Part shown: piece by piece, positions 3,151-9,188 of the stretch | Layout: each line of letters begins with the position of its first letter | How positions within the stretch are numbered: position 1 is the stretch's first letter | NCBI GenBank assembly: GCA_011523425.1 | Contig: WTGU01000046.1 | Span: 1 to 64,000, forward strand | Direction: 5' to 3' | DNA length: 64,000 bases | Origin: Alphaproteobacteria bacterium | GTDB lineage: Bacteria; Pseudomonadota; Alphaproteobacteria; UBA828 | Notes under the pieces: generated by a model | The model's input: the letters and a program-made list of their open reading frames with translations, nothing else | The model's database searches: none | What the model was told of the DNA's origin: nothing | Position numbers and translations under genes: made by a program

Positions 3151-4731
3151 ATGCACGGATCGGTGGCGACGATGGAAGGGTCGGAGCGCTGGGCCGTCCG
3201 CAAGCCCGTCGTGACGAGCAGCGGGGGCGTGGTCGCGACGCAGCATCAGGCCGCCTCCGAGGTCGGCGCCCGCGTGCTGGCAGACGGCGGCAATGCCGTG
3301 GATGCCGCCATCGCCGCGAGCGTCGCGCTGGCCGCGGTCGAGCCCTGGATGAGCGGACTCGGCGGCGGCGGCTACATGCTCGTCCGCTCCGCCGGCGAGG
3401 ACCGCACCTGGACGATCTCGTTCGGGATGGTGGCGCCGGGCGCGCTGGACCCGGCGGACTACCCGCTCACCGGCGAGACCGGCGCGGACATGTTCGGCTG
3501 GCCGGCGGTGCTGGACGATCGCAACCTGCGGGGCCCGCTCGCGGTGGCGGTGCCGGGCCAGGTCGCGGGCCTCGCCCTGGCGGCGGAGCGCTTCGGCACC
3601 TGGCGCTGGGCCGATCTGCTGGCGCCCGCGTGCGCGCTCGCCGAGCAGGGCCTGGCGGTCGACTGGCATACGACGCTGGCAATCGCGGCGACCGCGCAGG
3701 AGCTCGCCGGGGACCCGGTCTGCGCCGCGATCTACATGCCGGACGGATTGCCGCTGGCCGCACCCTGGACCGGGTCCGCACCCCGCATCCGCCTGGGATC
3801 GCTGTCTGAGACACTCCGCCGGCTCGTCGAGGCGGGGCCCGAGGACTTCTATTCCGGCGAGATCGCCCGTGCCGTATGCGCCGACATGGCGGCGCTCGGC
3901 GGGCGCCTTTCGGCGGCCGATCTCGCTTCCTACGAGGCCCGGGTCGAGGAGGCGCCCGCGGCCCGCTACCGGGACGCCCTGGTGCGGACGGCACCGGGGC
4001 TCACCGCCGGCGCGACGCTGGTCGACGTGCTGAACCGCCTCTCGGGCTCGCTCGATCCCGCCGCCGCAACGGAGGGCGAGACCTACTGTGCCTATGCCGA
4101 AGCGTTGCGCGGCGCCTATGCCGCGCGGCTGCGGGCGCTCGGCGACAGCGCGAGCGCAGATCGCGCCTCCTGCACCAGCCATCTCGGCGCGGTCGACCGG
4201 GACGGCACCGTCGTCGCGCTGACCCAGACCCTGCTCTCGCCCTTCGGTGCCAAGGTGATGCTGCCGGAGACCGGGATCCTGATGAACAACGGCATCATGT
4301 GGTTCGATCCCCGGCCCGGCGGACCCAACTCGATCGCTCCCGGTAAGCGCCCGCTCTCCAACATGTGCCCGACGATCGTCGAGTTCGAGGACGGCCGCTG
4401 TGCAGGCCTCGGCGCATCGGGCGGGCGCCGCATCCTGCCTGCCGTGGCGCAACTGCTCTCCTTCCTCGCGGACTTCGGCATGAGCCTGGACGAGGCCGTG
4501 CACAGCCCGCGGATCAATGTCGACGGACCCGGCCTCGTCGAGGCGGACGCACGGCTGCCGGCAGGCACTCTCGCCATGCTCGAGACCCGGTTCGACCTCG
4601 CGGTCCGGCCCTACGGGGTCCATCCCTCGTCCTATGCCTGCCCGAACGCGGTCGTCTGGGAGCCTGCGACGGGCACAGCAGCAGGCGCCGCCCACGTCAT
4701 GTCACCCAATGCATGCGTCGGCGCGCCCTGA
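3151..4731 (+). CDS. Gamma-glutamyltransferase family protein (cytosolic type)
   Basis: A 526-aa Ntn-hydrolase of the gamma-glutamyltranspeptidase family. The large-subunit region has GGNAVDAAIAAS (about residues 46-57) and the SGLGGGGYMLV loop. The autoprocessing nucleophile is Thr342 in SCTSHLGAVD, followed by the oxyanion and substrate motifs PLSNMCPTIV and GASGGRR. Unlike E. coli Ggt there is no signal peptide, and the overall length resembles the shorter cytoplasmic YwrD-like members. Two in-frame ATGs (3151 and 3172) are possible starts. The gene lies between an amidase and an Asp/Glu racemase-family gene. Hydrolysis of gamma-glutamyl amides or similar compounds is a reasonable inference. 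Confidence 0.88.
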   Translation: MHGSVATMEGSERWAVRKPVVTSSGGVVATQHQAASEVGARVLADGGNAVDAAIAASVALAAVEPWMSGLGGGGYMLVRSAGEDRTWTISFGMVAPGALDPADYPLTGETGADMFGWPAVLDDRNLRGPLAVAVPGQVAGLALAAERFGTWRWADLLAPACALAEQGLAVDWHTTLAIAATAQELAGDPVCAAIYMPDGLPLAAPWTGSAPRIRLGSLSETLRRLVEAGPEDFYSGEIARAVCADMAALGGRLSAADLASYEARVEEAPAARYRDALVRTAPGLTAGATLVDVLNRLSGSLDPAAATEGETYCAYAEALRGAYAARLRALGDSASADRASCTSHLGAVDRDGTVVALTQTLLSPFGAKVMLPETGILMNNGIMWFDPRPGGPNSIAPGKRPLSNMCPTIVEFEDGRCAGLGASGGRRILPAVAQLLSFLADFGMSLDEAVHSPRINVDGPGLVEADARLPAGTLAMLETRFDLAVRPYGVHPSSYACPNAVVWEPATGTAAGAAHVMSPNACVGAP

Positions 4732-5552: not shown

Positions 5553-6485
5553 TCAGGCGCTCGCTGCCTGCTCCTCCGGCGGCTCCAGCAGGTCGGCCAC
5601 CGGCGTCGCGTGCCAGCCGTCGGCCCGCTTGGACCAGTAGAGGTCGGCGAGCCGGCCGGTGGTGATGCCCGGTGCGCCGTTGCCGATCGGCTTGTCGTTG
5701 ACCCGGACGACCGGCATCACGCCGCCGCCGGACGACGAGATGAAGGCCTCGCTCGCCTGCTCCAGGTCTTCCGCCCGCAGGTCCGCCGCCTCGGCCTCGA
5801 GGCCGATGGCCTGGCAGAGGTCGAACACGGTCTTGCGGGTGATGCCTTCCAGCAGGTTTTCGCCGGGCGTCAACGCCTTGCCGTCGCGGATGATCCACAC
5901 GTTGAAGCCGGGCCCTTCCGTCAGGTAGCCCTCGGTCGACAGCAGCACCGGCTGGTCGGCGCCGGCATCGAGCGCCTCGAAGTGGGCGGCGGTGAGGTCC
6001 ATCCGGTTGAAGTTCTTGCAGCGCTGGTTGATGGCGGCGTCCGGCGCGCGGCGGGTCTCGGCGATCCAGAGATGCGCGCCCGACTTCACCTTCGGCTCCG
6101 GCACGATGGTGTAGTAGGGCACCGCATAGGCGATCAGCTCGTTCTCGGACGAGCGCGGGTCGCCGAAGGCGGCGCCGCCGGCATAGCGCCCGCGGGTGCA
6201 GAGCACGTAGACGATCGAATCGGTGAAGCCCGCACGGTCGACGCATTGCGCCATGATGTGCCTGATCTCGGCGTCCGCCAGCGGCGGCGTGAGCCGTACC
6301 AGCGCGCAGGAATCGTAGAAGCGCTTCATGTGGTCTTCGAGCCTGAAGAAGATGCCGTCGCAGACCGTGACCGCGTCGAACACCACGTCGCTCTTGTGGA
6401 AGGCCGGGTCGAGGATCGGTATCGATGCCTCCTCGATCGGCACGTAGCGACCCTGGCAATAGGCGATTCCCTTCGATTCGGACAT
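5553..6485 (-). CDS. Class IV PLP aminotransferase (D-amino acid/branched-chain/(R)-amine type)
   Basis: A 310-aa fold-type IV PLP enzyme. The cofactor lysine is Lys157 in NQRCKNFNRMDL, followed by the Glu/phosphate-binding features TEGYLTEGPGFNVW and LLEGITRKTV. The N-terminal YVPIEEASIPILDPAF is the usual substrate-loop region. The family includes IlvE, D-alanine aminotransferase, aminodeoxychorismate lyase and (R)-selective amine transaminases. The length and the RC-K context suggest the last or the D-amino acid group, but substrate choice cannot be settled by eye. It converges with the racemase-family gene, 25 bases stop to stop, and has its own upstream region of about 235 bases. Confidence 0.85.
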   Translation of the reverse strand: MSESKGIAYCQGRYVPIEEASIPILDPAFHKSDVVFDAVTVCDGIFFRLEDHMKRFYDSCALVRLTPPLADAEIRHIMAQCVDRAGFTDSIVYVLCTRGRYAGGAAFGDPRSSENELIAYAVPYYTIVPEPKVKSGAHLWIAETRRAPDAAINQRCKNFNRMDLTAAHFEALDAGADQPVLLSTEGYLTEGPGFNVWIIRDGKALTPGENLLEGITRKTVFDLCQAIGLEAEAADLRAEDLEQASEAFISSSGGGVMPVVRVNDKPIGNGAPGITTGRLADLYWSKRADGWHATPVADLLEPPEEQAASA

Positions 6486-7555: not shown

Positions 7556-7571
7556 CCAGGGCTTACCCTGG
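7556..7571 (-). repeat. Inverted repeat spanning the stop codon of the FGE-type gene
   Basis: CCAGGG-CTTA-CCCTGG is a perfect 6-bp stem with a 4-base loop, and the TAA stop (7563-7565) lies in it. It sits directly after the proposed variable repeat. In known diversity-generating retroelements a short GC-rich hairpin or cruciform just downstream of the variable repeat helps target mutagenic homing. The position fits, but the loop (TAAG on the coding strand) is not the GRNA loop described for the Bordetella phage system. It could also serve as a weak terminator, although no T tract follows. Confidence 0.5.
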
Positions 7572-8519
7572 CGCAATAAGCGTCCGGGCAACGCGGAAGC
7601 CGAAGGTGACGACCCGGTTCCCGACGCTGTACCCGAGGCGGATGGCGGAACGGAGGAACCACGGTATGTTGCTCCACGAACCGCCGCGCAATACGCGCTG
7701 CCCGCAATCACCGCCCGCCACCCAAGCGCTGCCGTCCGACGGCGCGCCCGCATAGTCATTGTGCCAGCAGTCCTCGACCCATTCCGATACATTGCCCGAC
7801 ATGTCATGCAAGCCGAAACCGTTCGCCGCAAACGAACCCGCCGGAGCCGTTTCACGGCCGTCCCAGCGGCTGCCGCAGCCGCGGCAGTTCGCCCGGTTCC
7901 GACCCACCGAATCCCCCCAGCTATAGCGCGTCCGCGTCTTCGCGCGCGCCGCATATTCCCACTCCGCCTCCGTCAACAGCCGGTACTCCTTCCCCGTCTT
8001 CCGCGACAGCCACGCGACATACGACCGCGCTTCGTTCCAGGTCACATGGATGACCGGCCGACTTCCACGGCCCCAGCCCTTGTCATCGGGGCGATACCCG
8101 TCGCACCCGCCAGCGGATACGCAGGTATCCCATTCCGCAAACGTCACCTCGTGTTTGCCCACCGCAAAGGGTTGCGAGATCGTCACCTCATGCTGCAGGA
8201 CTTCATCTCCGTCACGGCCTTCTTCCGACCTCGGCGAGCCCATGACGAACGAACCCGCCGGCACCACCACCATTTCTGGGCAGGACGGGCAATCCCGGAA
8301 TGTTTCCCCCGCCTTCGGCCCCACTTCCGCTTCGGCCAGCAGCGCCGTCGGCACAAACCCCGCACGCCCGCCTGCCTCGACACGGCCCGCTGCGTCATGC
8401 AACGCAATCTCTTCTGCTGCCTTTACAACATCATCCACGCTTCCGGCTGTTCCGTGGCTGGCAAGAAGCGAAGCGGCTACGAAGGCCACGGCGGAGAGGG
8501 TACGGGCTATGAGTTTCAT
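7563..8519 (-). CDS. Secreted FGE/SUMF1-type domain protein with DGR-like variable C terminus
   Basis: A 318-aa protein. Residues 1-26 form a signal peptide (MKLIARTLSAVAFVAASLLA, then a small-residue region). An FGE-sulfatase/C-type-lectin-like fold spans about 82-314, with VVVPAGSFVMGS, PVIHVTWNEA, LLTEAEWEYAARA, NGFGLHDMSGNVSEWVED and RVLRGGSW (276-282). The end, residues 283-306, holds Ser, Asn, Ile, Trp, Phe, Leu, Tyr, Val and Thr at the positions where related proteins have Asn runs, and most of these codons are NNC. That is the signature of AAC codons altered at A, as in DGR target proteins. It probably acts as a periplasmic or surface ligand-binding protein rather than a true formylglycine-generating enzyme (inference). 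The start is the ATG before the signal peptide; the frame is open further upstream. Confidence 0.85.
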   Translation of the reverse strand: MKLIARTLSAVAFVAASLLASHGTAGSVDDVVKAAEEIALHDAAGRVEAGGRAGFVPTALLAEAEVGPKAGETFRDCPSCPEMVVVPAGSFVMGSPRSEEGRDGDEVLQHEVTISQPFAVGKHEVTFAEWDTCVSAGGCDGYRPDDKGWGRGSRPVIHVTWNEARSYVAWLSRKTGKEYRLLTEAEWEYAARAKTRTRYSWGDSVGRNRANCRGCGSRWDGRETAPAGSFAANGFGLHDMSGNVSEWVEDCWHNDYAGAPSDGSAWVAGGDCGQRVLRGGSWSNIPWFLRSAIRLGYSVGNRVVTFGFRVARTLIAPG

Positions 8520-8576
8520 GTTGGCACCATCATCTGATCGTTTGTCGTCGGCGCGATATAGCGCGACAATCTGGAT

Positions 8577-8750
8577 GAGAGCCGCCTCCGCCGCCCCGTA
8601 GCACAAGACAAGTCGGCTACCCTGTTCCTCCAGCGCCTTCGCAAGCGCCTTCAGACTGCCGTGCAACCACCAGCGCGACGCGACCCCGAGGGCAGTATCG
8701 CCTGCCTCTTCGTCCAGCATAAACAACGGAACAACGGGCCGCCCAGCGCC
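8577..8750 (-). pseudogene. Deoxyribodipyrimidine photolyase, N-terminal fragment
   Basis: The minus strand encodes about 58 residues of a photolyase N-terminal domain: GRPVVPLFMLDEE, then LGVASRWWLHGSLKALAKAL and EEQGSRLVLCYG. This is the pattern of the alpha/beta antenna-binding domain of class I photolyases (VLPVYVLDDE, GGASRWWLHHSL, GSRLVLRRG). The true N terminus and everything after the domain's first half are missing. The fragment is open in frame with the FGE-type gene but is preceded by Arg/Pro-rich non-protein-like sequence. It meets a hydantoinase B fragment on the opposite strand at about 8748-8757. It is interpreted as a decayed, rearranged remnant. Confidence 0.7.
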
Positions 8751-9188
8751 GGCGCCGGGCGCTGGCGCGGGGCGCCGGCGGCGGAAGTCGTCTACGGCCC
8801 GACGCACGGCTCCCTCACCGCCGTCATCCCGTCGGACGGCCACCGCGTCGCGCCCAGGGGCGTGCGCGGCGGCGCCGACGCGACGCCCGGCCGGACCGTC
8901 AGGATCGACAGCGGTGGCCGCGAGACGGTGCTGCCCAACTTCGTGCGCCTCACCCTCGAGCCCGGCGAGCGTTTGCGCGCGGTGGAAGGCGGCGGGGCCG
9001 GCTACGGCGACCCGCTCGCGCGAGAGCCCGCGCATGTGCTGCGGGACGTGGAGGAGGGGTGGGAGACGCAGGCGCGGGCGCGCGACGTCTACGGCGTGGC
9101 GCTCGCCGCGCCGGACGCGAAGGCGCCGCTCGCCGTCGACCGGGCCGCAACCCGCGCCCTGCGCGAGAGGCTCGGCGCGCTGGCGTAG
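8748..9188 (+). pseudogene. Hydantoinase B/oxoprolinase, C-terminal fragment
   Basis: The last 146 or so codons of a HyuB-type gene: RWRGAPAAEVVYG, then HRVAPRGVRGGADATPGR, LPNFVRLTLEPGERLR, GGGAGYGDPLAREP, HVLRDVEEGW and ARDVYGVAL. These match the C-terminal half of the subunit that completes ATP-dependent opening of hydantoin or 5-oxoproline rings. The N-terminal 350-400 residues are absent, and the upstream frame runs into photolyase antisense sequence. No hyuA lies nearby. It is a remnant left by a deletion or rearrangement, not a functional gene. Confidence 0.75.

Follow-up and report, generated by a model that had tools for sequence, protein, structure and literature searches.

A putative diversity-generating retroelement variable repeat in an alphaproteobacterial FGE-sulfatase gene, with no cassette found in the assembly

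Diversity-generating retroelements (DGRs) are machines that change the adenines within a single short segment of a gene. Remote CLec targets of DGRs have been described in cyanobacteria (PMC7517822), and in Thiohalocapsa PB-PSB1 targets whose loci are incomplete have been reported to be diversified in trans (Dore et al., 2024, PMC10907252). DGR-diversified FGE-type domains were proposed to sense invaders as part of conflict systems (PMC7159879, PMC10907252), and caspase-FGE architectures include metacaspase-FGE-sulfatase proteins (PMC3501461) and orthocaspase-CLec variable proteins (PMC7517822). Another described system is that of TvpA of Treponema denticola (PDB 2y3c), an FGE-type C-type-lectin variable protein whose cognate DGR is known. 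The locus studied here resembles Thiohalocapsa PB-PSB1 in combining variable-repeat targets whose local reverse transcriptase (RT) or template repeat (TR) is degraded or missing with FGE/CLec sensors, but intact cassettes occur elsewhere in that genome or in strain variants, whereas none was found in the present assembly (G000) (PMC10907252).

The window, i.e., the whole 64-kb stretch of DNA analyzed, contained an FGE gene encoding a 318-aa protein. Translation and profile search indicated a signal-peptide-like N terminus followed by a single FGE-sulfatase (FGE-type C-type-lectin) domain. The features of the gene and its surroundings were as follows.

8519 to 7563, minus strand: FGE target gene, 318-aa protein (PF03781, E 5.7e-55, residues 80–312)
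7585 to 7707, minus strand: putative variable repeat (VR), positioned from its register with the 123-bp TR/VR of the relative G019
7602 to 7673, minus strand: putatively mutated codons of the VR, residues 283–306 of 318
7556 to 7571, minus strand: inverted repeat CCAGGG-TAAG-CCCTGG, read from the sequence, a candidate post-VR hairpin or cruciform
8550 to 8750, minus strand: N-terminal fragment of a photolyase (PF00875 positions 22–89 of 164), upstream of the FGE gene and running in frame into its start
8739 to 9014, plus strand: hydantoinase B, C-terminal end (PF02538 positions 426–519), likewise upstream of the FGE gene

The adjoining photolyase and hydantoinase B fragments suggest that the FGE gene may be located at a rearrangement point. 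The closest solved relative by sequence was PvdO (5hha, E 6.7e-59), with human and bacterial FGEs and TvpA (E 9.4e-14) more distant; the similarity to TvpA, the one with a known cognate DGR, was only moderate. Together, PF03781 and the TvpA match placed the protein on a C-type-lectin-like scaffold with a C-terminal variable stretch, as in DGR targets. The C terminus read QRVLRGGSW-SNIPWFLRSAIRLGYSVGNRVVTF-GFRVARTL, SNIPWFLRSAIRLGYSVGNRVVTF being residues 283–306; all 13 C-ending codons listed for these residues in the original prediction were present, and the gene translated as given there. An AlphaFold model built on a nine-sequence alignment gave a mean pLDDT of 60, too low for the VR to be interpreted.

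A protein search of genomes from the same family led to contig C8 of G019, where two short stretches were similar to the C terminus only. These were the TR and the VR of a complete DGR (L083, G019:C8), arranged as follows.

6166 to 6339: FGE target, partial, cut off by the contig end
5707 to 6075: bAvd (PF22296, E 6e-18)
ending near 4683: reverse transcriptase (PF00078, E 5e-13)
about 4490 to 4645: TR

Within G019, the 123-bp TR and the VR differed by 16 mismatches, every one of them (16/16) at a template A. This TR, WNNKPRNVRSANRNRNDIENRNNNNGFR, aligned without gaps to the gene of the 318-aa protein. The two targets shared the ending RVLRGGSW...GFR..RTL, a gap-free VR and the same AAC register, but in G019 the RT, bAvd and TR adjoined the target, whereas here none did. 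Next to the DGR of G019 (C8:20239-26339, L083) were genes for a phage-type integrase and a primase-like protein, with rodA-like housekeeping genes alongside; DGR and integrase lay on a chromosomal contig. Because of this integrase, the G019 cassette may be mobile, on an integrative element. Intact DGRs with FGE targets were present at five loci of the homologue set.

Compared with the G019 TR, the FGE gene differed at 20 of the 30 template A's and 7 of the 54 remaining bases (Fisher 1e-6). Since the A positions are naturally variable loop positions, the count was then limited to non-A bases inside A-containing codons, where 1 of 21 differed against the 20 of 30 at A (Fisher 7e-6); this within-codon test handles protein constraint only partly, and some of the A-enrichment reflects such constraint. 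The template used is that of another genus, and the ancestral template of the FGE gene was deduced from it. A set of 114 FGE C-termini, equal in length and drawn from every locus, had a median of 43% non-A mismatches in A-codons, vs. 5% in the FGE gene, which ranked third behind only the G019 template and that template's own VR.

The comparison with homologues made use of the codon register alone, with no further template sequence. Against the homologue of G002, a member of the same genus, the VR showed 13, 12, and 4 differences at codon positions 1, 2, and 3, while the gene body showed 57, 49, and 111 (Fisher 1e-4). Ten of the 11 register codons of the VR had changed their amino acid with no third-base change at all, compared with 55% of the amino-acid-changed codons of the body differing at the third base (P 4e-4); these P values treat codons as independent, and several comparisons were tried without correction. 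Each species was represented by one genome. FGE genes lacking the pattern behaved differently, with third-base changes in 4 to 5 of 10 or 11 codons between the FGE gene and L196, L219, L186 and L207, and in 3 of 5 codons in the pattern-lacking pair L207-L211. Since the third bases of the VR were kept and those of the body were not, the likeliest course is that the gene bodies diverged first and that a conserved template then served to rewrite the VR.

The original prediction had read the C terminus as a DGR variable repeat, and the differences from the G019 TR and from homologues were indeed confined to template-A positions, as expected of a DGR target, albeit against the TR of a family member and not a cognate one. 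It had also described Asn runs in relatives at these residues, which is correct for template repeats but not for most homologous proteins. Of the two findings that it had named as speaking against it, the lack of an RT and TR was found for the assembly, while differences among close homologues beyond template-A positions were not.

The C-ending codons that had first drawn attention to the gene were less telling. Aligned to the G019 TR, the AAC-equivalent positions of the VR were W282 +1, 2, 6, 11, 13, 15, 19, 21, 22, 23, and 24, and all 11 codons ended in C (P = 6e-4 vs. neighbor codon use; P = 0.01 given the amino acids). Third-position C made up 51% of the codons of eight neighboring genes, the FGE gene counted among them, so that C-ending codons alone mean little and a real template was needed; with P values of 6e-4 to 0.01, they were rejected as sufficient evidence of a DGR by themselves.

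The G000 assembly comprised 3.62 Mb in 159 contigs and was 99.25% complete. It contained no RT detectable with PF00078 or a profile of four DGR RTs, no bAvd detectable with PF22296, and no TR, as BLASTN of the VR against the assembly matched only the VR itself as TR/VR. A template signature, with three mismatches allowed, was searched in six genomes and matched G019 only, with no match in G000. The RT, bAvd and signature searches all detected the DGR of G019, which was their positive control; PF05635 was uninformative as an Avd probe, matching nowhere, and PF22296 was used instead. The best other BLASTN match, at C59 (80% over 40 bp), lay inside a HAD-like gene and was discarded as an own-genome TR, as was a match at C51, where there was no FGE or TR. 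Within the window, tblastn of four bAvd and four RT sequences revealed no convincing remnant. All components of a complete DGR (RT, matching TR, and bAvd) were thus missing from the assembly. The original prediction was right that the window has no RT, avd or TR, an absence that extends to the whole assembly, and its proposal of a remote target served by a DGR elsewhere in the genome was not borne out there.

Among relatives, PF22296 was present in G019, G054 and G060, while bAvd was absent from the seven genus genomes searched (of eight) and the TR from the two genus genomes searched. RT-like matches in other genus members were read from their sequences as pieces of non-DGR RTs (from group II introns or of other kinds) and set aside. 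G002 (99% complete) had no DGR; like G017 and G018, it carried VR-like C termini, the clearest of the three, without a DGR RT or bAvd. In the viral contigs searched, a 59%-identical gene turned up, unaccompanied by a DGR, and nothing related to the RT of G019. At L084 (G018 C159:3939-4094), a VR-like stretch stood alone (RRVLRGGSWENSPRNMRSANRNWVANGLRSNSHGFRVVRSLP), with no FGE sequence read immediately upstream. Two other relatives carried partial cassettes.

L090 6198 to 6870 (G054 C28): DGR remnant, avd followed by an internally deleted RT frame, with two DnaK-FGE targets nearby
L291 (G060 C1:1120001-1139999), L292, L293, and L184: VR genes of G060

The G054 genome, from the same class and 100% complete, had a VR in a DnaK-FGE target, behind which came an intact-looking avd. 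The RT frame ran from near the RT start to ...DRVVHH and then directly into SFGFRAASTL, similar to the end of a template repeat; the greater part of both RT and TR appears to have been lost through an internal deletion. G060, a Pseudomonadales MAG in a single 3.8-Mb chromosome record, had six FGE genes with VRs, including at least three fused to a caspase, and the C termini of the six varied almost only at the first and second positions of NNC codons. A C-terminally truncated avd followed one of these genes, and no RT was found in the 3.8-Mb record. G054 and G060 thus show cassette decay, the process by which orphan VRs arise.

The 3' end of the FGE gene is very probably a DGR variable repeat. 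With DGR scars present and the machine absent from the assembly, the gene is probably a target that was abandoned recently or is served from a distance. The explanation considered best, and held with high confidence as a whole, is that the VR was diversified in its own lineage and that the cassette (RT, bAvd, and TR), not in the current assembly, was most likely lost. An error-prone reverse transcriptase would have copied the template repeat while randomizing adenines, mostly in AAC codons, and the mutated cDNA would have replaced the 3' stretch of the FGE gene, presumably after the split from the nearest sequenced congener. Subsequent loss of the cassette in this lineage would have left a frozen orphan VR, or else, less likely, the cassette may sit on an unbinned mobile element or missing piece and still act in trans. 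If the stretch is a DGR variable repeat, a lost cassette and a frozen VR are somewhat favored, and a cassette present but unassembled or mobile is the lesser possibility. The probabilities given to the different readings overlap with one another and need not add up to one.

Ongoing rewriting in trans, by an intact DGR on a plasmid, an integrative element or an unassembled stretch, is a tentative alternative. It would fit the phage-type integrase next to the G019 DGR, the trans diversification reported in Thiohalocapsa PB-PSB1 (PMC10907252), and the lack of third-base decay at the 11 VR codons, but the 99.25%-complete assembly yielded no RT, bAvd or TR, and a DGR was likewise absent from G002 (99%) and from the single chromosome record of G060, apart from the truncated avd. 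Import of the VR by gene conversion or horizontal transfer from the active DGR target of another lineage is doubtful: similar FGE genes exist in distant phyla, and the gene fragments abutting the FGE gene suggest rearrangement, but no donor and no near-identical VR was found in the collections searched. An ordinary FGE/PvdO-like protein, its loop diverged by point mutation and selection and its C-ending codons due to high GC, is very improbable, for all its body's closeness to PvdO, a non-DGR FGE-like protein, and the common third-position C of neighboring genes, given the far higher non-A mismatch rate of other FGE C-termini and third bases conserved in the VR but not in the body.

The case shows that a DGR target is recognizable even where its DGR is missing, through third-base retention at AAC-register codons. 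The third-base test exposes such VRs in near-complete genomes of this family, where RT-based DGR searches would miss them, and makes it testable whether RT-less variable repeats are frozen relics or are still rewritten by mobile cassettes. A more speculative and rather unlikely scenario is hit-and-run hypermutation, in which DGR-bearing integrative elements like that suggested for G019 would spread through this bacterial family, alter the FGE sensors already on the chromosome in trans, and then be lost; if true, the fixed variants left behind would amount to a one-time setting of an immune repertoire.

The nearest homologues (G002, G003, G017, G018, and G060) were C14 caspase-linker-FGE fusions, the C14 domain being identified by Pfam in G002, G017 and G018 and read from the sequence in G003 and G060. 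Unlike these fusions, the 318-aa protein has no caspase, yet it keeps an apparent SH3-linker tail after the signal peptide, where it aligned with that of the fusions (...GGRAGFVPTALL...). This ties the protein to the caspase-FGE fusions, which are related as a class to the proposed hypervariable sensors of bacterial conflict systems. It is best seen as a predicted secreted binding module with one fixed specificity, whose varied surface would bind ligands.

Hairpins of phage DGRs are GC-rich, lie just after the VR, and have a stem of 7–10 bp and a GRNA loop (Guo et al., 2011, PMC3240598). The inverted repeat at 7556–7571 sits where DGR targets carry this hairpin and has a perfect 6-bp stem and a TAAG loop containing the stop codon, but its stem is shorter than published and its loop is not GRNA. 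A hairpin as good occurs at ~1% of stop-like triplets within the window, and the repeat counts weakly toward the VR reading. Elsewhere in the same genome (L003, G000 C122:10516-14280), another FGE gene is adjoined, on the opposite strand, by a gene in which Cys-Pro repeats (NPCGPC, AACNPC, etc.) form a long run.
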